Source: Deltaproteobacteria bacterium
GTDB taxonomy: Bacteria; Myxococcota_A; UBA796; SXON01
Direction: 5' to 3'
NCBI GenBank assembly: GCA_947490345.1
Contig: CANLGL010000007.1
Coordinates: 1 to 64,000, forward strand
DNA length: 64,000 nt
Made by a program: the position numbers and the translations under genes. Positions 8,735-55,816 of the stretch are shown here, one piece after another. How positions within the stretch are numbered: position 1 is the stretch's first letter; each line of letters begins with the position of its first letter. The notes under the pieces were generated by a model. The model made no database searches and was not told where the DNA came from. It was given only the letters and a program-made list of their open reading frames with translations.

Positions 8735-9754
8735 ATGCGCCGCGTCAGGCCCTGGCTCCGCATTCTCCTCGTGCCCGCCCTCGCGTTGTTCGGGTCCCTC
8801 CTTGGATGGCTGGCGGACGGGAGCCTCGTCGCGAGCCTTGTCCTGCTCGTGGAGCCGGTACTGTGGGTTGGGGCCTGTTGGCTGGCCTACGCGGCACTTC
8901 TGCGCCGCGACACCGCCTTGGCGCTGCGAATCCTCTTCGGGGCCGTCGCCGCCGCGGCCAGCGCGCGGATTCCAAGGCCGCCTGCGGAACCCGCCGGGGT
9001 TGATGCCGCGCCCTTTGCCGAGCGGACGCGGGCGTGTGCCCGAGGGCTGCCGCTGCCCACACGCACGGTGCGCGTGCTGCAGTGGACGCTGTCTGCTGAC
9101 CACGAAGGCGTCGTCGCCGCGGTGACGGAGGCCGCGCCCGACCTTGCGGTGGTGCGGGGGGCGCTCAGTGGTGGAGAAGTCGAGGCGCTCGCCGCCGCCG
9201 TCGGCGGCGAGGTCCTGAGCCTGGCGCAGGAGCCCCCAATTCACGTCTTTTCGCGCGGGAGCTTCGATCTCTGCGGCGAGGCCGATTCCTGGAACGATGC
9301 CCCAGCACCGGGGACCGCGCTCGGACTGGCATTCGTGGCAGTCCCGGGCGCCACCCTGCCGCTGGTCACCGCCAGTCTCCCCGAGCTGGGCGCGGTGCGG
9401 AATTGGGAGGCGTCGCTGCGAACCGCGCGGGCCGCACTCCGCAGCACGGTGGACAGCCTGGGCTCGTCGCTGCTCTTGGTCTCGATCGACGCGCCACTGC
9501 CGCTGGCCGGCCCGCGGCTGGCGTCGACGCTGCGTTCGGTGCAGCTGCTGCCCGCCTCGCGCGCGCCGAACTGGCCCGCCTGGCCTCTGCCGCTGCACAC
9601 GTGGGATCAACTCTGGGTCGCCGAAGCGTGGCGCGGGGCGCCGATGAAGGCGGTCAGAGCGCGCGGTCCCACCCGAGCGGGCATGCTCGTCGAGTTCGCG
9701 CCGCGGTGGCCGGTGGTGCTACCAACGCCCGGAGACGACGACCCCGTTCGGTAG
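8735..9754 (+). CDS. Membrane protein with degenerate EEP (DNase I-like) domain
   Basis: A 339-residue protein with three N-terminal membrane helices (to about residue 75), followed by a globular domain beginning VRVLQWTLS and EAAPDLAVV. That layout resembles YafD-type endonuclease/exonuclease/phosphatase proteins. The usual catalytic Asn, Glu, Asp and His residues are not evident: the first strand ends WTLS rather than an N-containing N-T/W motif, and no GDFN or SDH motif is seen. It may be a non-enzymatic relative. Its 3' end overlaps the convergent gene on the minus strand by 36 nt. Confidence 0.5.
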   Translation: MRRVRPWLRILLVPALALFGSLLGWLADGSLVASLVLLVEPVLWVGACWLAYAALLRRDTALALRILFGAVAAAASARIPRPPAEPAGVDAAPFAERTRACARGLPLPTRTVRVLQWTLSADHEGVVAAVTEAAPDLAVVRGALSGGEVEALAAAVGGEVLSLAQEPPIHVFSRGSFDLCGEADSWNDAPAPGTALGLAFVAVPGATLPLVTASLPELGAVRNWEASLRTARAALRSTVDSLGSSLLLVSIDAPLPLAGPRLASTLRSVQLLPASRAPNWPAWPLPLHTWDQLWVAEAWRGAPMKAVRARGPTRAGMLVEFAPRWPVVLPTPGDDDPVR

Positions 9755-11131
9755 AATCATCACCGGGGCGTCGATGACCTGCAGCACCACGCCGGCACCG
9801 AGGAGCGCCACACCGCCGCCCACCATCGCCATGGTGCTGTAACGACCGATGTCGAAGCGGCCTTCCCATGCGGTCGCGGAGTCGCGCGACATGGACCCAG
9901 GCGAAGCGTTGGCCTCGCTGATCGCGGCGTAGGCCGGCTCGACCACGGTGAAGTTCATCGCGGCGCCGCCGAGCAGCAGGCCACCCCCGGCGGACATCAG
10001 GATGATGGCAGGGAGGTCAGGACCCGACGGACGCGTCACCTTGGCCGTGCTCGCCGCCAACGCCTTGTCAGCGGCGGCCTTGTCAGCCGCGGCCTTGTCG
10101 GCGGCGGCCTTGTCCGTTGACTTTGCGGCCAGGGCCTTGTCGGCAGCAGCCTTGTCGGCAGCAGCCTTGTCGGCAGCAGCCTTGTCGGCCGTAGCCTTGT
10201 CCGCCGCGGCCTTGTCCGTTGCCGCCTTGTCCGTCGACTTTGCGGCCAGGGCCTTGTCGGCGGTGGCCTTGTCGGCGGTGGCCTTGTCGGCGGCGGCCTT
10301 GTCGGCGGCGGCCTTGTCGGCGGTGGCCTTGTCGGCGGCGGCCTTGTCGGCGGCGGCCTTGTCCGTCGACTTTGCGGCCAGGGCCTGGTCGGCGAGCGCC
10401 TTCTTTTCTGCGTCCGCCTTGGCCTTTTCCGCGACCTTGGCGTCGGCGAGCGCCTTCTTTTCTGCGTCCGCCTTGGCCTTTTCGGCGACCTTGGCGTCGG
10501 CGAGCGTCTTTCGCTTTTCAGCCTCTATCCTAGCCTTCTCGGCCTTGGGGTCGGGCTTTCCGCCGAGTTGACCGCCGGAGCACAACACGAGGTAATCAAC
10601 CGGCGGCGCGCCGTAGTCGTACCAAGAGCCGGCAAACTCACCGCCTTCGCATCGGATCTGGACCAGGTGCCGTCCTTTGATCAGCATGTCCTCGGCGGCC
10701 ATCCGCTTGCCGTCGATGAAGATCAGCGCGTCACCCGAGTCCTCCGGAAGCCCCGTAGGAAACTGGTCGTAGTTGCGCACCTCGCCCCGGAGGGCGTACA
10801 TGACGTCTTGCGCATCGACCTCCGGCAAGAGTGCGGGATCGGGCTCGAACTGCGGGGAGATTATGAGAACGCGCCGCCAGTGATCGAGCGCGGCCTTGTC
10901 CTTGTCGCCGCTGCGCCACTCCACCAGCCCACGGAAGAAGTGCAGCTTGGCCAGGTCCGCCTCGGCCAAGGGTGAGCTCGAGGTGGGCGCCGCCGCCTCC
11001 GCCGCCGTGAGCAGCGTCTTCGCCGTCTTGTAGTCCTTGGCGAGAAGCGCCTCACGGGCCTGCTGGACGATGGCCACGTAGCCGAAATCCTGCGCCCAGC
11101 CGCCAGCAACGAGAAGCAGGATCAGCGACAT
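9719..11131 (-). CDS. Envelope protein with TPR-like region and Ala/Lys/Asp repeats
   Basis: The ATG at 11131 overlaps the end of the kinase gene by 10 nt and gives a clean signal peptide (MSLILLLVAGGWAQ). Residues ~15-110 look like a TPR-type helical repeat. Then comes a PEGA-like beta segment (DALIFIDGKRMAAEDM) and a long stretch of AADKA-type repeats that would form an extended charged helix. Two membrane segments follow near the C-terminus. The architecture suggests an envelope-spanning or surface protein. Its position at the end of the kinase operon suggests it is a target or assembly partner of that system (inference). Confidence 0.65.
   Translation of the reverse strand: MSLILLLVAGGWAQDFGYVAIVQQAREALLAKDYKTAKTLLTAAEAAAPTSSSPLAEADLAKLHFFRGLVEWRSGDKDKAALDHWRRVLIISPQFEPDPALLPEVDAQDVMYALRGEVRNYDQFPTGLPEDSGDALIFIDGKRMAAEDMLIKGRHLVQIRCEGGEFAGSWYDYGAPPVDYLVLCSGGQLGGKPDPKAEKARIEAEKRKTLADAKVAEKAKADAEKKALADAKVAEKAKADAEKKALADQALAAKSTDKAAADKAAADKATADKAAADKAAADKATADKATADKALAAKSTDKAATDKAAADKATADKAAADKAAADKAAADKALAAKSTDKAAADKAAADKAAADKALAASTAKVTRPSGPDLPAIILMSAGGGLLLGGAAMNFTVVEPAYAAISEANASPGSMSRDSATAWEGRFDIGRYSTMAMVGGGVALLGAGVVLQVIDAPVMILPNGVVVSGRW
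10060..10395. repeat. In-frame minisatellite encoding AADKA repeats
   Basis: Tandem 15-nt-type units (plus strand gcggcggccttgtcg and variants), interrupted three times by a ctttgcggccagggcc unit encoding ALAAKSTDK. Two longer imperfect units encoding ADAKVAEKAKADAEKK lie next to it at about 10396-10510. The unit length is a multiple of three, so copy-number changes would keep frame and change the length of the rod. Confidence 0.8.
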
Positions 11132-12924
11132 TCGCCACGCTCCCAAGCACCGCTGCGCCAAGTCAGCAGGCACGTCTGATCGGCTGCGACCGGGAAGTCC
11201 GTGAGCTTTGTGCCCGAGCTGAGCTTGAGCTTTGCCCGGGCGCTACCCGGTTCGAGGTCCTTGAGTCGGAGGTTCATCGAGCCGTCCCACTCCTGACGGA
11301 AGCCGCTGCTCGTGGTGATCACGACCTCGCTGGCCCCATCGGGAACACGGAGTATCGCGCCGCCCTTCCCCTTGGCGTTCGGCGCCCAGTCAACGTCTGA
11401 TCTGCCTGGAGGCATCTTCGTAGTCGGGGCCCCTGCCACGACGGTCGGGGTGGAGGACGAAGTACCGATGGCGACGAGACCGAGCGCGAGGGCGGCCACC
11501 ACGCCAAGCACCGCCAGCACGGCCAAAGCCACCCCGTACTTCCAGAACCCGCCCGACGGGGCCGCTTCGCCGGCCGTCCCCGACGAAGTCGATAGCGTCG
11601 CGAGTGTGGGCGCGCTGTGGGTCAGCGGCCCTGAGGTGGTCGCAGGCTTGGCCCGAGGACCCGACCGTTGGCCGGTGTCGACGGCGGAGAGCGGCGGCCA
11701 GGTTGCGTTGGGGCCTGGGATAGCGCCGGAATCGAGCGCCGGCGCGGGGGCGGCCGGAAGGAAGCTGGCGACGCGAGGGGGGGCGGGCGGGCTGGCGTAG
11801 GCGGCGGACGCCCCCGCCGCGGCGGCTGGGCTGCCGCTGGGCAGATCGACCGGCAGGTCCGCCAGCTCGGGCGGAACCTGGAACTCGTCGTCGCCGCGGG
11901 GCGCACCCACAGGGTCGGCCGTACGCGCTTCGCTGACGCCGGTGACGTCCTCGAAGATCATCGCGCCGGTGTAGGGATCGTTGGGGTCCTGATCAGGACT
12001 CCAGGCATCACACGCCTTCTTAACCAATTCCCGCGAGAACCGCTTCAGGCCGGCGTCACTGGCCAGATCGGCGAGCGCCTCCATCTCGTCGATCACCTGC
12101 GCCGCGCTCGGCCGCGCCTCGGGCTCGTAGGAGAGCATCCGCCGCAAGCAGGAAAGCACGCCGTCGCGACCGGCCGGCGACATGTCGGCGAGATCGAGCG
12201 CGTCGAGCCGCGCCGAAACCGTCGGCTCGTACCGTTCCTGGCGAAGCGGGATCTTGCCGAAGGTGTCGAGGGTGATGCACTCGTAGAGGGTGATGCCGAG
12301 GCTGAAGATGTCGCCCGAAGGGGCGTCAGCCTCGCCCAACATGCGCTCTGGAGCCATGTAGGCCTGGCTGCCGAAAGCGAGGACCTGCGTCTTCGCTTCG
12401 CGCTCTTCGAAGGTGGCCCGGGCGGTGCCAAAGTCCAGCACCTTGACATCGCCTTCGACGGTGATCATGGCGTTGGACGGCTTGATGTCGCGGTGAATGA
12501 CCTGCAGCGCTTCCCCGCCCTGGAGGGGCCGGTGGGTGTAGGCCGCATCCAGCGCCGCCGCGATCGCCCCGATGGCCTCGATGGCGGCCTTCCGTGGAAA
12601 GGCGCGCTCCTGCTCCTTGAGGGCCACGGTGACGGACTTGAGGTCCATGCCCTGGAGATACTCCATGACAATCGCGCACTGACCGCCGATGGAGGTCAGG
12701 TCCTCGACCCGGACGATGTTGCGGTGCCGGAGCCGGCCGAGCAGCCGCGCCTCGTCCCGGGACCGCATGACGATTTCGTCGTTGCTAAGCCACTTCCCGT
12801 GGAGCAACTTGATGGCGACCACCGAGGAGAAGTTTTCCCCGGTAATCATTTCCGCCAGATACACCTTCCCGAACCCGCCCTGTGCGAGCTCCTTGAGGAA
12901 CTTGAATCGTCGGCGGGGTTCCAT
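11122..12924 (-). CDS. Transmembrane Ser/Thr protein kinase
   Basis: A 600-residue Hanks-type kinase from the ATG at 12924. All key residues are present: glycine loop AQGGFGKVY, K39 (VAIK), HRDIKPSN with D146, DFG (D164), and APE (191-193). A Pro/Ala-rich linker leads to one membrane helix at about 465-490, then an extracytoplasmic beta domain. It should phosphorylate Ser/Thr in the cytoplasm in response to an envelope cue. A TATAGT box lies upstream of the start, inside the intergenic gap. The neighbouring FHA protein is the obvious phosphothreonine reader. Confidence 0.88.
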   Translation of the reverse strand: MEPRRRFKFLKELAQGGFGKVYLAEMITGENFSSVVAIKLLHGKWLSNDEIVMRSRDEARLLGRLRHRNIVRVEDLTSIGGQCAIVMEYLQGMDLKSVTVALKEQERAFPRKAAIEAIGAIAAALDAAYTHRPLQGGEALQVIHRDIKPSNAMITVEGDVKVLDFGTARATFEEREAKTQVLAFGSQAYMAPERMLGEADAPSGDIFSLGITLYECITLDTFGKIPLRQERYEPTVSARLDALDLADMSPAGRDGVLSCLRRMLSYEPEARPSAAQVIDEMEALADLASDAGLKRFSRELVKKACDAWSPDQDPNDPYTGAMIFEDVTGVSEARTADPVGAPRGDDEFQVPPELADLPVDLPSGSPAAAAGASAAYASPPAPPRVASFLPAAPAPALDSGAIPGPNATWPPLSAVDTGQRSGPRAKPATTSGPLTHSAPTLATLSTSSGTAGEAAPSGGFWKYGVALAVLAVLGVVAALALGLVAIGTSSSTPTVVAGAPTTKMPPGRSDVDWAPNAKGKGGAILRVPDGASEVVITTSSGFRQEWDGSMNLRLKDLEPGSARAKLKLSSGTKLTDFPVAADQTCLLTWRSGAWERGECR

Positions 12925-12958
12925 CCTTCCAGGGCGGCCGACTATAGCGCACTGATCG

Positions 12959-13690
12959 TCAATCTGTGCGGCATAGACCACCGTCGCCGGTCACATTCTC
13001 CAGCGTCAAGTGCAGGAGCGCAGCGTACGCCTGGACTTTTCCGTCCACCCCCCGCCACTTGTCTTTTACCCCGTCCCACGACCAGTTCTTGAATAGGGCC
13101 GGGCCCCACGGCCGCTTCCGCTCCAGCACCATCGGCACCTGACGTGCGAACACCGCCCCGAAGCCCATTCGGGTCGCGTCGGCCTCGCGGTTTTCGACCA
13201 GCTCGATGGCGGTGATCAGAGCGAATGGACGGTCGCGACTGTACCAATCCTGGACTTCGAAATTCGGCATGCCCGTCAGGTCACGCACGACCAACTCTTC
13301 CCCGCTCTCTTCCACGAGTAACTGGAGCGCAGTGTAGCGTGCCGGACTGGCGCGCCCGCACAGTCCGTTTTCCAGGATTGTGGGGTCGTCGGTCTGATCG
13401 ATCAACGCGCGAATGGTATCGAGCGCCGGCTCCCCGATGTTGAGACGCTTCGTCAGCGTCTCAACTCGGGTGAGGATCTCCGCCACCTCTTTGGCGTCGA
13501 AGCCCATCGCGGCGAAGTTCGTCTCGCGCTGGCCGGGCACGAATTTCAGGTCCGCGAGCGGATCACCGATCGCGATGGCCGCGTCGGCCACGTCAGTGCG
13601 GGCGGCGATCTTCTCGTCGTACAAGAGCCCGCCGGTCACCGGAACCAGGACCATCAAGGCGACGAGCGCGGCGATGAGGCGACCGTTCAC
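12959..13690 (-). CDS. Membrane-anchored periplasmic protein of unknown function
   Basis: A 243-residue protein. The GTG at 13690 overlaps the TGA of the transglycosylase gene (GTGA), which fixes the start. One N-terminal membrane helix (about residues 4-23) anchors a helical extracytoplasmic domain with two cysteines (ENGLCG and GGLCRT). No family is recognised. The strict coupling with the FHA-transglycosylase gene suggests it works with that protein at the cell wall. Confidence 0.65.
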   Translation of the reverse strand: MNGRLIAALVALMVLVPVTGGLLYDEKIAARTDVADAAIAIGDPLADLKFVPGQRETNFAAMGFDAKEVAEILTRVETLTKRLNIGEPALDTIRALIDQTDDPTILENGLCGRASPARYTALQLLVEESGEELVVRDLTGMPNFEVQDWYSRDRPFALITAIELVENREADATRMGFGAVFARQVPMVLERKRPWGPALFKNWSWDGVKDKWRGVDGKVQAYAALLHLTLENVTGDGGLCRTD

Positions 13691-15333
13691 TTCTTGGCGC
13701 CCCCTTTCCGTGCCCGGACCGCCTCGGGCGTCGGTACGCCGATCCGTGAGCAATACCCGACCGTGTACTTGGCGTACGGCGCAAATTCTGGCATTTCGCT
13801 ATAGTTCTGTCCGTAATAACAAACGGCGAGCATGTGCTGGGCGATGACGTACGGCACGTAGGTCTGGGTGACGCTGGGCAGGTACCCGCCGCAGCCTGCA
13901 TTGAAGTCCTTCAGGTCGAGCTTGCCCCCCTCGGTGGCGCTACGACAGGTGATGTTCCGTCCGATAAAGTCCGGCGCCCGCTTGAGGTTGTTATTTGTCA
14001 GATAAGCCGCGTATGCCCTCGCGATATTCGTTCGACTCACCTGCCCGTTCGACCGCCACTTCGCATCATCGTAGCCGGCGTTGTGAGTGGCGATCAGCAT
14101 CTGGACCATCGCCCCCGAGCTCCGAAACGCCGGGTCATTCCATGGCTCTTCGAAGTTACGAATCGCCGCGTCGGTGGCGCGCTCCGGGTCGTCGCGCTCG
14201 TCCTCGTCGCAGGTGCTGATGGTGCACCGTCGGTCCAGCACGTACTCGGCCTTTTCGATGGCGTTGACCGGGAGCGCCTTCTCGGTCGGGGCCCACAAGA
14301 GTCCGCCGGTTTTGCTGTTGTGGCAGCCGCTGACCTTGAGCCCGTTCCGGACCGCGATCTCTGGCTGAAACTGCCACATTCCGTACGCGCAAAGCATGTG
14401 GTCCTTTGCTGCGGGGTTGTAGCCCGACTCCTGGAAGGGTACGCCGGCCAGCACCTCCGGCATGCGCTTGGCGCGCAGTTTCCGAACGACCATCGCGTAC
14501 CGATCGACGGCATCGTCGAGCTTCTTCCAAAAGGCCCAGCCCCCGATGTACATCTGCTGTGACTTCGTCACCCACAAGAGCAGATTGGGATCGGCCTTCT
14601 CCGGGTCTGTCAACGAATCGTCATTGGCGAGGCCGGCGTTGATCGAGGTGACGAAGTCCTTCATCCCATCCCCGGAGTTGGCGGCGCGTAGGCCTGCGTC
14701 CACCTCGGTGATCTCGAAGACGTCCCCGTAGTCATAGTAGTCCTTGCCCTCGCTCTTGGGGCCGAGCGGCTCGACCTCGTTCTGGACGATGACGAGCACC
14801 AGAAGCGTGATCACCCCCAGCGTGCCGAAGGCCATCGCCGCGATCCCAGGCAGGAACCACCAGGGAATCCGACGTCGAAGGTCGAGCTGCTTGACCGCGC
14901 CAGCGTTGCCCTCGGCCCCCGCCACCTGATCGGTCACCTCAGACTGGATGGCCTGGGCCTGCCAAACGCCGAGGCGGCGACATTCCACGAAGGTGAACGT
15001 CGCCCCCCGTCCGGGGGGACCAAGGTGCACGGCGGCGCCATCGGACAGGAATACTGGGCCTCGCAGCGGTTGGATGGTGCCCCAGTCCACGTTTTCGTGC
15101 GGCGCCATCCGCACCTGGTTGGGTCCGACCTGCGCAATCTGCACGGTGCCGCCCTGGTAGGCGCTGATGACCGCGTGACGGTCGTCCAGCGCGCGGTAGC
15201 CTTCGAGCTTGAGGCCGCCAGGGCCGGGATTGCTTCCGATCCGCACGACCGGCCCGCGAAGCACGAGATCACCCTGGTAGGCCAGGGGCCCGTCCAGAAA
15301 ACGCAGGACGACGTCCCAACGTTCCTGACTCAC
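13687..15333 (-). CDS. FHA-like domain, TM helix and lytic transglycosylase-like domain
   Basis: A 548-residue bitopic protein. Residues 1-115 form an FHA-like beta sandwich (VRIGSNPG and DDRHAVI, a weakened S-x-x-H). A membrane helix spans ~158-184. The extracytoplasmic part has an SLT-type signature PFQESGYNPAAK with candidate catalytic E302, then AYGMWQFQPE and a later HNAGYDDAKW. It would cleave peptidoglycan glycan strands outside while sensing phosphorylation inside, a rare arrangement. GTG starts overlap stops on both sides by 4 nt. Confidence 0.75.
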   Translation of the reverse strand: MSQERWDVVLRFLDGPLAYQGDLVLRGPVVRIGSNPGPGGLKLEGYRALDDRHAVISAYQGGTVQIAQVGPNQVRMAPHENVDWGTIQPLRGPVFLSDGAAVHLGPPGRGATFTFVECRRLGVWQAQAIQSEVTDQVAGAEGNAGAVKQLDLRRRIPWWFLPGIAAMAFGTLGVITLLVLVIVQNEVEPLGPKSEGKDYYDYGDVFEITEVDAGLRAANSGDGMKDFVTSINAGLANDDSLTDPEKADPNLLLWVTKSQQMYIGGWAFWKKLDDAVDRYAMVVRKLRAKRMPEVLAGVPFQESGYNPAAKDHMLCAYGMWQFQPEIAVRNGLKVSGCHNSKTGGLLWAPTEKALPVNAIEKAEYVLDRRCTISTCDEDERDDPERATDAAIRNFEEPWNDPAFRSSGAMVQMLIATHNAGYDDAKWRSNGQVSRTNIARAYAAYLTNNNLKRAPDFIGRNITCRSATEGGKLDLKDFNAGCGGYLPSVTQTYVPYVIAQHMLAVCYYGQNYSEMPEFAPYAKYTVGYCSRIGVPTPEAVRARKGGAKK

Positions 15334-17894
15334 CCCGGGACCCCGCGCCGAATGGCGAGCCGACTCGTATCGGTGAGCTCATGGTCGGCCAGGATGTGGA
15401 AGTCATCAAGGACCACCCCATCCAGCGAAAGCTGCCAGGGCTCGTCCGCGAGGCCGAACTGCATCGCGAACGCGTCAACCAGCGAGACGATGGGCACTGC
15501 CAATCCGAGCATCTGACCCACCGAACGGCCATCGACATCGACCGACATCCACACGGCGTTGTTCTCCACGAAGTGCAAGGAGCAGGTCTCCTCGTCGTCC
15601 AGCTCGCCCACGGTCAGGTCGACGGGCAGGGGGCCCAGCTCATTGCCGAGTCGATACCACCCGAGCAGGCGGCCGTCCGGCGAGCACCGCAGCGGAACGA
15701 GAACGCCCACAAGTTGGTGAGCCGCCTGGGCGAGCGTGGTGTCGGCTGGGAGCCGCTGCCGGTGCCCGCGAACGCCGGGGGCGCGGGCGAAACGGACGGC
15801 GACGGGCTCGCCCCGCGCCGCCTGGCGGACCTGGATGGGCACCCTGCGTGCCCGCGATGGCGAGGGAGTCGGACCCTCGGCCGCGGAATGCGGCGGGGCC
15901 AGGGCGGGAGCCGCCGAACGTACCGGCGGCGGCGGGGGTGGAGCGGGAGCCGGCGGTGGCGAAGCACGAGGCGGCGCGGGGGGCGGCGCGGGGGGCGGCG
16001 CGGGTGGGGCGGGCGCAGGCGCGGGAGTGGGCGCAGGCGACGGGGCGGGCGCAGGCGACGGGGGGAGCGCAGGCGACGGGGGGGGCGCAGGCGACGGGGG
16101 GGGCGATGCAGTCGGCGGTGGCGGCGCTACCGGGCGCGGGCCTGAGGCGCTCGGGCCGGTTGGATGCTCGTCATCGTCGTCGCCTTCCGGCCGGGGGGCC
16201 GGCGGCGGGGGCGGGAGCGAGCGCGGAGGGGCGACCACGACGGGGGCCGCCGTTGCCCCGGGGGCGGCCACTTCGACCGGGACGAAGTCACCGAGAGAGG
16301 ACGCTGCGGCGGCCGGTCCCGGGACTACCACCGGCGGCGGAGGGGTGACTCGCGGGGTCGCGATGGGCCCACTCCCGGAAGCCCGCATCGCACGTTCCAC
16401 GCGGTCGCGAATCGCTGCGACGCCGCTGCCGCCGCTCTGAGAGAGGATCTCCTCCACCATCGACTTGGGGTCATCCGCCGGGCGGCCGTCTGTGGGCGAC
16501 GCCTGGGGCGGGCGCCGCCCCGGAGGGAGGCGCGCGGCGCCGAAGGGGCTTGCCGGCCGCGCGGCCGCGGGCGGAGGCGGTGCGAGTTCCGGTGGGGGCA
16601 GATCGACCGGCGGCGCAGCGCGGCCGCGGGTCGGGACCGAGGTGATCACCGAGGGTGCCGGCGGCGGCGCGGGCGCTTCCGGCGCCAGGGTCGCAAGGCG
16701 TGGCGGCCGTCGACCAGAGGGAAGTCCGCCCCCCCCTGCAGAGCTGACGAGGACGTCCGCCGGTGCCGCAGGAGCGGAAGGCGGCGTCGATCTGGCCAGC
16801 GCTGGCGCGACCAGCGCCGCGGGAGCGGCCAGGGCTTCCGGTGAGGGTGAGGGCGCGCGGGCCGGCGGGGAGCGCGACGGAGCAGCAAATTCCTGCCGGC
16901 CAGATGGGGCCGACGTGAGTGGACCCTCATCCTCCGCGAGGCGGCGCAACTCCTCCTTCGAGAGCATCGATGTCCGCCCCGGATCGAGCTCCTGCCGCGC
17001 GCGCGGCTGGTGCCGTGCCACGCGGGCCATGACCTCCCGTAGCGAGGGGCCGGTGAGGGCTGGGTCACTGATGGCGGCCGAGACCGCGTCGATGAACTGC
17101 TGGCCGCTCCCAAATCGATCGCGGAATTCGGGACGCAACGTCGTCGTGAGCACATCGCGCACGGACCCAGGCAGCGTATCCTTGAACTGCTGCAGGCGGC
17201 GGCTCGTCTCTCCCCGCGCGGCCTTGGTCCGGATCTCATTGATCAGTCCGTCGTACACGGGACGGCCGGTCATGAGCTCGAAGCAGATCAACCCGAGCCC
17301 GAACAGGTCCGAGGTGAAGTTCTCCCGCCGAGCGTCCATGCGTTCGGGGGGGCAGTAGCGGAACGCGTCCTCCCGGGGGATCCGGCCAGGCTCGTCGTGG
17401 AAAACAAGTATTTCCACCTGAGGCAGGGCGTATCCGATGAGGTTGACCCGCCCCTCACCATCCAACATCACCCGCCAGGGTGTCAATCCACCGTGGCTGT
17501 ACACCCCCGCGCCTTCGCCAGTTTCCGCCGCTTCGACGAGAATAGTCCCGGTCTGCAGCAGTAGTTCGAGTCCGGCGCGCGGGCCCCCGCTCTCGCCCAG
17601 ATCGCTGAGCGTGCGGATGACTTCGGCGACACTCCACACCTGCCCGGTGTTGTACAAAAACGCGGCCTGGTCGCGCTCGTGGCGCACGAGCTCCGCCAGC
17701 CCGGGGACCATCGGTGACTCGAGGAACCCATAGACCACGTGCAGGGCGGCATTGATGGCGTTATGACCCCGGTACTCCGGGTGAAAGACCACCGCCGTGA
17801 ACCGAGCGCCGTCCCCGCCTTGGAGCTCGATGAGATCAGAGCCGGGGCCGAGAAGCTGCCGCCCGGTCCGCGCGTAGCCGCCGATCACTTCCAT
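15330..17894 (-). CDS. Pseudokinase with Pro-rich linker and C-terminal beta-grasp domains
   Basis: An 854-residue protein. Residues ~1-290 follow a protein-kinase fold without catalytic motifs: SHGGLTPWRVML (133-144) replaces the HRD loop, IGY (153-155) replaces DFG, and CPPER (181-185) plus SDLFGLG mark the C-lobe. A Pro/Ala-rich linker runs from ~340 to ~690. The last ~160 residues look like two ubiquitin-like domains (LLGWYRLGNELG and LSLDGVVLDDFHILAD). It should be a cytoplasmic scaffold. TAGCTT lies 6 nt before the ATG with no Shine-Dalgarno, so the operon mRNA may be leaderless. Confidence 0.65.
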   Translation of the reverse strand: MEVIGGYARTGRQLLGPGSDLIELQGGDGARFTAVVFHPEYRGHNAINAALHVVYGFLESPMVPGLAELVRHERDQAAFLYNTGQVWSVAEVIRTLSDLGESGGPRAGLELLLQTGTILVEAAETGEGAGVYSHGGLTPWRVMLDGEGRVNLIGYALPQVEILVFHDEPGRIPREDAFRYCPPERMDARRENFTSDLFGLGLICFELMTGRPVYDGLINEIRTKAARGETSRRLQQFKDTLPGSVRDVLTTTLRPEFRDRFGSGQQFIDAVSAAISDPALTGPSLREVMARVARHQPRARQELDPGRTSMLSKEELRRLAEDEGPLTSAPSGRQEFAAPSRSPPARAPSPSPEALAAPAALVAPALARSTPPSAPAAPADVLVSSAGGGGLPSGRRPPRLATLAPEAPAPPPAPSVITSVPTRGRAAPPVDLPPPELAPPPPAAARPASPFGAARLPPGRRPPQASPTDGRPADDPKSMVEEILSQSGGSGVAAIRDRVERAMRASGSGPIATPRVTPPPPVVVPGPAAAASSLGDFVPVEVAAPGATAAPVVVAPPRSLPPPPPAPRPEGDDDDEHPTGPSASGPRPVAPPPPTASPPPSPAPPPSPALPPSPAPAPSPAPTPAPAPAPPAPPPAPPPAPPRASPPPAPAPPPPPPVRSAAPALAPPHSAAEGPTPSPSRARRVPIQVRQAARGEPVAVRFARAPGVRGHRQRLPADTTLAQAAHQLVGVLVPLRCSPDGRLLGWYRLGNELGPLPVDLTVGELDDEETCSLHFVENNAVWMSVDVDGRSVGQMLGLAVPIVSLVDAFAMQFGLADEPWQLSLDGVVLDDFHILADHELTDTSRLAIRRGVPG

Positions 17895-52121: not shown

Positions 52122-53363
52122 ATGCATCGCAAAACCCGCGACAAAGACCTGACCTGTTCCTTCTGCGGCAAGTCCCAACGGGACGTCCGCAAGCTCATCG
52201 CCGGACCCAGCGTCTACGTGTGCGACGAGTGTGTCGAGCTGTGCAACGACATCATCACCGAGGAATACGAACGCGAGGACTTCCAAGCCTCGCGGGCGTT
52301 GGTTCCACGCCCCATCGAAATCGCGCGTCACCTCGACGATTACGTCGTGGGGCAGACGCGGGCCAAGAAGGTGCTCTCCGTCGCGGTCCACAACCACTAC
52401 AAGCGCATCGATGCGCGGGCCACTCGCGACGATGTCGAGCTCCAAAAGAGCAACATCCTCCTCATCGGGCCCACCGGCACCGGAAAGACGCTGCTGGCGC
52501 AAACGCTGGCTCGCAAGCTCAACGTCCCGTTCACCATCTGTGATGCGACGTCGTTGACCGAGGCTGGCTACGTCGGTGAGGACGTTGAGAACGTGGTCCT
52601 CAGCCTGTTCCAGGCCGCGGAGTACAACGTCGAGCGCACGATCAAGGGCATCATCTACATCGACGAGATCGACAAGGTGGCCCGAAAGGGCGAGAACCCG
52701 AGCATCACCCGCGATGTCAGTGGCGAGGGCGTGCAACAGGCCCTGCTCAAGATCATCGAAGGCACCGTCGCCAACGTGCCCCCCAAGGGCGGCCGAAAGC
52801 ATCCGCAGCAGGAATTCCTGCAGATCGACACCACCAACATCCTGTTCATCTGCGGGGGCGCCTTCGTCGGCCTGGACAAGATTGTCGAGCAACGGATCAA
52901 CAAGTCTGGCATGGGCTTCGGCGGTAACGTCCGCGAACGTGCCAAGCTCAACACCGGCGAGCTCCTGGCGCAGGTCGAGACCGAGGACATCTTGCGTTTC
53001 GGCATGATCCCGGAATTCATCGGCCGACTGCCCGTGGTCGCGACGCTCGAAGATCTCGACGAACAAGCGCTCATCGACATCCTCGTCCGTCCAAAGAACG
53101 CGCTGGTCAAGCAATACCAGAAGCTCTTCGACATGGAGGGTGTCTCCCTGCGCTTCACCGACAGCGCCCTCAAAGAGATCGCGAAAGAAGCCGTCAAGCG
53201 TAAGACTGGCGCCCGCGGCCTGCGGGCCATCGTCGAAGACCTCATGCTCGACGTGATGTACGACCTCCCCGGGAAGACCGGCGTCCGCGAGTGTGTCGTC
53301 ACCGACGAAGTGGTGTCGCGGAAGAAGGACCCCATCCTGGTGTACGAGAACGAAGCGGTCTAG
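52122..53363 (+). CDS. clpX: ATP-dependent Clp protease ATP-binding subunit ClpX
   Basis: A 413-residue AAA+ unfoldase. The N-terminal zinc-binding domain has CSFCGKSQ and CDECVELC. Walker A is [15 protein letters not shown], Walker [10 protein letters not shown], the pore loop GYVGEDVEN, and the C-terminal domain has the expected GFGGN and arginine-finger regions. It unfolds substrates for ClpP. No clpP is adjacent; lon follows 8 nt downstream. Confidence 0.97.
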
Positions 53364-53371
53364 GAGACTCG

Positions 53372-55816
<2,445 letters not shown>

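Follow-up and report, generated by a model that had tools for sequence, protein, structure and literature searches.

We analysed a window of 64,000 nucleotides from Deltaproteobacteria bacterium (assembly GCA_947490345.1, contig CANLGL010000007.1, positions 1 to 64,000 of the forward strand), in which positions 9719-17894 hold five minus-strand open reading frames (ORFs) that form one tight operon. Its genes encode a pseudokinase with C-terminal ubiquitin-like (UBL) domains, a protein that joins an FHA-like domain, a transmembrane (TM) helix and a lytic transglycosylase domain of SLT type (here the FHA-SLT protein), a small membrane-anchored protein, an active Ser/Thr kinase and an envelope protein, and our study concerns their association, in other genomes of the window's order, with a contractile injection system (CIS). 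An earlier note on this DNA had proposed such a five-gene operon with GTGA overlaps or close spacing, and all of its ORFs were confirmed: overlaps of 4 nt (GTGA) join the pseudokinase gene to the FHA-SLT gene (15330-15333) and the latter to the membrane-protein gene (13687-13690), while a gap of 34 nt precedes the kinase gene and an overlap of 10 nt joins it to the envelope gene, these last two values being counted from the starts that homologues suggest, since the starts of the TM, kinase and envelope genes were chosen by comparison with them. TM helices were predicted by hydropathy. The features are listed below in window coordinates.

15330..17894, minus strand: pseudokinase-linker-UBL-UBL gene; 854 aa, no clear TM helix
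16995..17894, minus strand: pseudokinase domain, aa 1-300; SHGGLTPWR in place of a HRDLKPSN-type loop, GYA in place of DFG
15561..15815, minus strand: first UBL-like domain, weakly supported
15333..15560, minus strand: second UBL domain; supported through homologues rather than by the window sequence taken by itself
13687..15333, minus strand: FHA-like - TM - lytic transglycosylase gene; 548 aa
14950..15333, minus strand: FHA-like domain, aa 1-128; phosphothreonine residues absent, weak profile basis for the fold
14773..14859, minus strand: TM helix, aa 159-187, by hydropathy
13699..14721, minus strand: SLT domain region with a conserved Cys, presumably periplasmic; catalytic Glu E302 at 14428-14430
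12959..13690, minus strand: membrane-anchored protein gene; GTG start at 13690, one N-terminal TM helix
11122..12924, minus strand: active Ser/Thr kinase gene; ATG start at 12924, one TM helix
9719..11131, minus strand: envelope protein gene; ATG start at 11131

The first protein of the operon, which the earlier note had read as a pseudokinase, has lost all three catalytic motifs of a kinase, and the same holds for its homologues: the beta-3 Lys is lost (17 of 20 have Phe), one of the 20 keeps the HRD Asp and none the DFG Asp, and PPER, one Asp of the C-lobe and one Gly are invariant. The profile of the domain matches the C-lobe of bacterial Ser/Thr kinases in the PDB (best 4eqm, E 5e-13, then StkP and PknB). 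Judged by these residues, and by the profile for its fold, this protein is a catalytically dead pseudokinase. A Pro-rich linker occupies 15816-16994. The sole hydropathy peak of the protein, a weak one at residues 792-810, falls within the second UBL domain, so we take the protein to be soluble. For that second domain, the profile of the homologues matched a redesigned ubiquitin (2mlb, E 3e-5) and ISG15 (E 0.009), the higher scores of polyubiquitin being weak repeats summed, and Pfam returned Rad60-SLD in six, YukD in four and ubiquitin in four of 32 homologues (best E values 0.0019-0.0095). The first domain gave a weak YukD match in 2/32 homologues (best E 0.007), and its profile search of the PDB gave no convincing match. 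Over the whole UBL region YukD is the commonest Pfam match (8/35 homologues, best E 6.5e-4), and the C-terminus of the window protein itself matched no UBL family of Pfam. The two ubiquitin folds that had been proposed are therefore upheld in part: the second is supported through homologues, and another perhaps stands before it. An hhalign match between the two domains (probability 91%) was set aside as an artefact, as it covered only a stretch common to both alignments.

The second protein carries the predicted wall-cutting enzyme. Its SLT domain passes the Pfam cut-off (E 8e-7), the catalytic Glu, E302, which the earlier note had already picked out, is invariant in 30/30 homologues, and the profile matches 8rhe, a LysM/transglycosylase chain, in the PDB (E 2e-9); murein transglycosylase D of NCBIfam gave a weak match (E 6e-4). 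On its profile and catalytic Glu, the domain is a GH23/SLT lytic transglycosylase. The N-terminal domain resembles FHA domains by weak profile evidence only: hhalign aligned it weakly with canonical FHA domains (P 0.02, a probability of only 2%), and its profile found no match in the PDB. In the register given by this weak alignment, the phosphothreonine-binding Arg and Ser are each absent from all 33 homologues (Asp takes the place of Ser in 30); among 15 canonical FHA domains of the window's genome, the Arg is retained in 13 and the Ser in 12. The reading of phosphothreonine by this domain, and with it the control by phosphorylation through FHA that had been suggested, was rejected on these residues, their register resting on the weak alignment. 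Mean column identity, taken over row sets that differ, is 67% for the FHA-like domain and 65% for the pseudokinase, compared with 46% for the SLT domain, 42% for the UBL region and 41% for the small TM protein. That the two most conserved domains, which are neighbours, are those that have lost their active residues points to a contact between them.

The remaining three proteins would belong to the membrane and the envelope. The small membrane-anchored protein has one TM helix (residues 21-46), and profile searches found no convincing family or PDB match for it. The kinase is intact, as had been noticed, with AIK, HRDIK and DFG all present, and its single TM helix (aa 477-511 of the longer ORF) is followed by a C-terminal domain that is presumably periplasmic. 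The envelope protein consists of an N-terminal signal or TM segment, a TPR-like region (E 0.004, below the cut-off), the predicted rod of AADKA motifs, here 12 AADKA/ATDKA repeats, and two C-terminal hydrophobic segments, which makes three hydrophobic segments in all; its matches to HC2 and extensin look like low complexity and were discarded.

The operon is a property of the whole order. The FHA-SLT protein was matched in 58/63 genomes of the order (in one of them, G043, in part only), and the profile of its FHA-like domain likewise found 58 of the 63, with one marginal match (E 9.9e-4) in 314 other genomes of the phylum. The named relatives are metagenome-assembled genomes, whose titles mostly read Deltaproteobacteria or Proteobacteria. 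Co-location was counted by BLAST on the operon strand in 48 loci: matches to the TM protein came from 40 of them, to the kinase from 39, to either the pseudokinase or its UBL end from 41 and to the envelope gene from 19. The earlier note had staked its reading on such co-location in related genomes, and all five kinds of gene do occur together in 18/48 loci, seven of them with the pseudokinase domain itself; in the remaining 11 the contig ends within the first gene. The common set is the first four genes, the envelope gene being less often found (it was not found at the loci searched in family f3), and genes missing at other loci are partly explained by contig ends or divergence. Many homologous contigs end in the first gene, possibly at an assembly break, and the pseudokinase domain is accordingly under-sampled (21/48 loci). 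Three of 47 FHA-SLT ORFs were dropped (L068, L072, L074), and L066 has no clean FHA-SLT ORF; the alignments used 33/44, 35/41, 30/43, 30/40 and 20/21 references (A1-A5), 21/25 references (A8), 15/22 FHA matches (A9) and 32/41 references (A10 and A11), the omitted rows including the divergent L066, L069 and L078. One contig titled Klebsiella pneumoniae (L043, CAMBIK010000155.1) carries an FHA-SLT gene at 68% identity, and its title looks mislabelled.

In several genomes of the order, the contigs that we read hold a CIS cluster and then the operon. Pooled over these genomes, the order is Pvc16 cap, sheath, tube, second sheath, LysM tube initiator, GPD hub, gp25, baseplate J (TIGR02243), Cis12-like gene, Cis13-like gene, a YukD gene, a minus-strand gene, and then the pseudokinase-UBL, FHA-SLT, TM-protein and kinase genes, followed in some by the envelope gene. 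The CIS parts were identified by matches to Pvc16, two sheaths, the gp19 tube, CIS_tube/LysM, the GPD hub, gp25, TIGR02243 and the CIS12 and CIS13 families, and the clusters of G022 and G023 hold the set of sheath, tube, hub/spike, gp25, Cis11/12 baseplate and cap that is typical of an extracellular CIS (eCIS). The Cis13-like protein is short (311 aa) and has no predicted TM helix, and no tail fibre was recognised among those genes of the clusters that were scanned. Among the 57 genomes with both genes, the FHA-SLT gene shares a contig with baseplate J in 20 and lies 3.7-10.1 kb downstream of it on the same strand in 17; random placement in genomes of 6 Mb would give about 0.05 genomes, although related genomes are not independent. 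These cases come from four of the six families of the order (f2 2/2, f3 12/19, f4 1/10, f6 2/3, with 0/4 in f5), and G004 was not counted, since there a distance of about 12 kb separates the operon from the UBL-TM gene of the same contig and the surrounding genes are others. Furthermore, G042 (97% complete) and G053 lack the FHA-SLT gene, the UBL-TM gene and the baseplate orthologue together, with weak distant sheath and baseplate matches still present, and FHA-SLT and baseplate genes tend to occur or to be missing jointly (Fisher p for co-absence 0.001, or 0.009 without G021, which is 79% complete). A shortened run occurs in G046: tube and baseplate genes, a gene whose product resembles a UBL by eye, a minus-strand gene, a 430-aa SLT protein (E 4e-6) and the kinase.

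The YukD gene of these clusters adds a further UBL membrane protein. A YukD search of the order found it as a separate gene in 50/63 genomes, in 14 on the contig of the operon, and it encodes a UBL domain above the YukD cut-off, three to four predicted TM helices and a RING-like Cys/His cluster (RING E 0.0075-0.012, below the cut-off). As a whole, the UBL-TM-RING-like gene is present in 58/63 genomes of the order and has three marginal matches in the 314 others. The minus-strand gene between it and the pseudokinase gene (L109:16509-18602, L106:13458-15395) bears a 'GN.A' motif near its N-terminus, and it had no Pfam match in two genomes and no NCBIfam match in one. Taken together, we consider the link between the operon and the CIS strong and very probably genuine.

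The genome from which the window comes has its CIS dispersed over at least four contigs: C48 has matches to the cap, sheaths, Cis5 adaptor, LysM initiator and hub, C13 has baseplate J, Cis12 and Cis13, C11 has gp25 and the UBL-TM-RING-like gene, and C7 has the operon, so that the window seems to show one part of a machine, detached from the rest; in the stretches fetched from this genome, no main tube gene was found. Several other genomes keep the CIS as one cluster, unlike this dispersed one. The UBL-TM-RING-like gene (L101:12525-13541) adjoins gp25 (L101:13429-13902), and its layout recalls EccD/TssN; a 1244-aa ORF within the CIS core of this genome (L192:12134-15868) has no Pfam match. The genome, of 5.5 Mb, is rich in signalling proteins (62 Pkinase and 22 FHA matches). 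Elsewhere in the window, the stretch 52122-55816 adjoins tRNA-Val and tRNA-Asp and has ORFs that resemble ClpX and Lon.

Outside the order, the CIS is wider than the operon module, because relatives of the baseplate occur in 79/314 genomes (E 1e-30). Three class relatives also have SLT proteins 6-14 kb from the CIS baseplate gene (G063 and G066 of family f7 and G065 of f9), the ORF of G063 starting at the edge of the fetched stretch; their N-termini are FHA-like by eye only, with an IGR motif in G065, and their BLAST similarity to the proteins of the order is weak and lies mainly in the SLT region. In f7 the genes after the CIS encode a ThiF (E1) protein (E 4.5e-39 in G063, 4.5e-38 in G066), a TM protein whose end is rich in Cys and His, a UBL protein of 96-110 aa and an E2 protein. 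The UBL and E2 proteins of G063 were matched by YukD (E 1.4e-6) and UQ_con (E 2.3e-7), and for G066 and G068 the remaining members were assigned by the look of their translated starts, one or two members of each locus having been scanned with Pfam. JAB proteins occur further along in G066 (E 5e-15) and, with a weaker match below the cut-off, near the CIS in G065. These ubiquitin-like cascade loci are L183:10320-13437, L184:344-15537 (with JAB) and L185:6296-9412, and the UBL protein of L183 ends without Gly-Gly.

We propose that the operon is an envelope-docking and firing-control module of the CIS in this order, a reading to which we give a probability of about 0.57. From the observed associations, the hydropathy profiles and the residues lost or conserved, its mechanism is inferred as follows. 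The FHA-SLT protein would span the membrane, with its FHA-like domain in the cytoplasm below it and its peptidoglycan-cutting domain above. The soluble pseudokinase-UBL-UBL protein would bind the FHA-like domain without phosphate, as YukC and YukB do in type VIIb secretion, and, together with the UBL-TM-RING-like protein, it would hold the CIS baseplate at the membrane. The transglycosylase would open the wall where the tube passes, the small TM protein and the TPR/rod protein would complete the envelope path, and the active kinase, with its presumed periplasmic end, would set the moment of docking or firing. As a whole, the module would act like the membrane complex of a type VI secretion system (T6SS), with no evident homology to it. 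Three published systems each back one of these steps. For the Bacillus subtilis proteins, contact between the pseudokinase of YukC and the FHA of YukB was observed in E. coli and was inferred not to depend on phosphate (PMC9600267); TssN, with UBL and TM parts, serves as a baseplate dock, and MltE is a recruited transglycosylase (PMC10781749); and CisA acts in the firing of the Streptomyces CIS (PMC12237407). By analogy with YukC/YukB, a phosphate-independent contact between pseudokinase and FHA-like domain is more likely here, and the active kinase may regulate through other targets.

Several points weigh against this proposal. In the window's own family (f1), the operon lies near the baseplate gene in 0/19 genomes, and the 17 genomes counted as near include G046, whose baseplate is distant (31%), and G057 and G060, where only part of the baseplate is present on the contig concerned. 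In genus g2 (L055-L057) the first three genes only were found, without the kinase and envelope genes at this place. The FHA fold itself is weakly founded (best Pfam E 0.065, in 3/33 homologues, with no match for the window protein), and in the SLT proteins of the class relatives Pfam found SLT only, with no FHA match, and hydropathy predicts a TM helix in one of the three (G065). An hhalign comparison of the pseudokinase UBL domains with the UBL of the CIS cluster gave negligible similarity (probability 0.2-3%, P 0.016-0.26). Lastly, the co-absence of the FHA-SLT and UBL-TM genes is weak (p 0.046), and incomplete genomes may fake gene absences.

The module can be compared with known systems. 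In mycobacteria, PknB, MviN and FhaA control wall synthesis with a kinase, a pseudokinase domain and an FHA domain around peptidoglycan, in a phosphothreonine-dependent way; that system is not known to have a CIS or a transglycosylase fusion. The type VIIb scaffold (YukC/EssB, YukB/EssC, YukD/EsaB) shares such parts, with a dead kinase, an FHA domain without phosphothreonine residues and a UBL (PMC9600267), and the earlier note was right that these parts occur together as in type VII secretion. Here, however, the UBL domains are fused to the pseudokinase and the FHA-like domain to a transglycosylase, a CIS is the neighbour, and the operon has no WXG100 protein and no additional FtsK/SpoIIIE ATPase in its own genome. 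The TssNQOPR proteins of the Bacteroidota T6SSiii likewise dock a contractile machine, through TssN with its TM helices and cytoplasmic UBL fold; those five proteins have neither a pseudokinase nor a transglycosylase fusion (PMC10781749), the CIS here is of eCIS type, and the likeness to TssN lies in the described architecture. Streptomyces CisA and the thylakoid-anchored CIS of Anabaena share with our proposal a membrane factor on an eCIS-type particle that stays with the cell, but CisA is one bitopic protein, Anabaena uses Cis12/Cis13 extensions, and the word kinase is absent from the main texts of both papers (PMC12237407, PMC8894136). The phosphorylation pathway of the T6SS (PpkA, Fha, TssL) also places a Ser/Thr kinase and an FHA protein by a contractile machine (PMC3953482); there FHA binds a phosphothreonine of TssL, whereas here the residues are lost and TssL is absent in 61/63 genomes of the order (it was found in two, and not in the window's genome), for which we rejected a canonical T6SS. 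A survey of 2006 described UBL and JAB genes beside phage tail genes and YukD beside a secretion system; a word search of its available text (PMC1779556) gave neither FHA nor transglycosylase, and E1, E2 and UBL together beside a CIS were not seen in it. Among the titles, abstract openings and passages listed by a literature search outside subscription journals, bioRxiv and supplements, no CIS with FHA-transglycosylase or pseudokinase-UBL parts appeared, and we know of no description that combines an inactive kinase with UBL domains and an enzyme that cuts the cell wall.

Other explanations were considered. The operon could be a regulated lysis device that opens the wall of the producer so that CIS particles escape in the eCIS mode, rather than an anchor. 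The parts of the CIS mark it as eCIS-type, genes for a wall-cutting enzyme and for a kinase stand beside it, and a seamount study read Myxococcota CIS clusters, mostly from UBA796, as eCIS with a highly expressed tube gene (PMC11937823). A free endolysin, however, is not what is encoded, the enzyme being membrane-anchored and fused to a cytoplasmic domain; the CIS clusters read include the further UBL membrane protein, and the 311-aa Cis13-like protein without predicted TM helix and the lack of a recognised tail fibre in the genes scanned also count against release, which we hold to be unlikely. Slightly less probable still is an independent operon for envelope signalling or wall remodelling that lies near the CIS by chance in some families. 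Its separation from the CIS in the window's family, the reduced set of genus g2, and G002 and G016, which have a baseplate and no FHA match, with G026 showing the reverse (genomes 80-86% complete), would fit such independence; the same-strand synteny in 17/57 genomes of four families, the co-absence statistics given above and the SLT genes near the CIS in class relatives oppose it. A type VII-like secretion system taken literally is highly improbable, and membership was rejected, since the pseudokinase, YukD-like UBL and FHA-like domain do occur together but the substrate family WXG100 is absent (0 in the window genome, 1/63 in the order), the only FtsK_SpoIIIE match of the genome, on contig C1 away from the operon's contig and inferred to be the chromosomal FtsK, leaves no further ATPase, and the neighbour in other families is a CIS.

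With respect to the earlier note, the absence of WXG100 proteins holds for the genome and that of FtsK/SpoIIIE needs to be qualified by the match on C1. Its peptidoglycan-remodelling or export system agrees with the predicted peptidoglycan cleavage and with the link to an export machine, but the operon seems not to stand alone, as a CIS adjoins it in other families; the operon is real and order-wide, and its stand-alone framing was probably wrong.

If the docking and firing-control proposal is right, this order may have a separate way to mount a contractile machine in the diderm envelope, with a type-VII-like dock of pseudokinase, FHA-like and UBL parts, a wall-cutter and a kinase trigger. As a related machine in sister families adjoins E1, E2, UBL, RING-like membrane and JAB proteins, the ubiquitin-like proteins may have been modifiers first and have become fixed as structural docks in the window's order later; we put this wider scenario forward tentatively, as somewhat doubtful. 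For the question of how eCIS-type particles act from inside cells and pass through the wall, open in most lineages, the conserved proteins of this lineage are candidates for a dock, an opener of the wall and a trigger. The lineage also ties ubiquitin-like domains to a machine derived from phage tails, and the trio of pseudokinase, FHA and UBL may serve as a scaffold of wider use, beyond type VII secretion.

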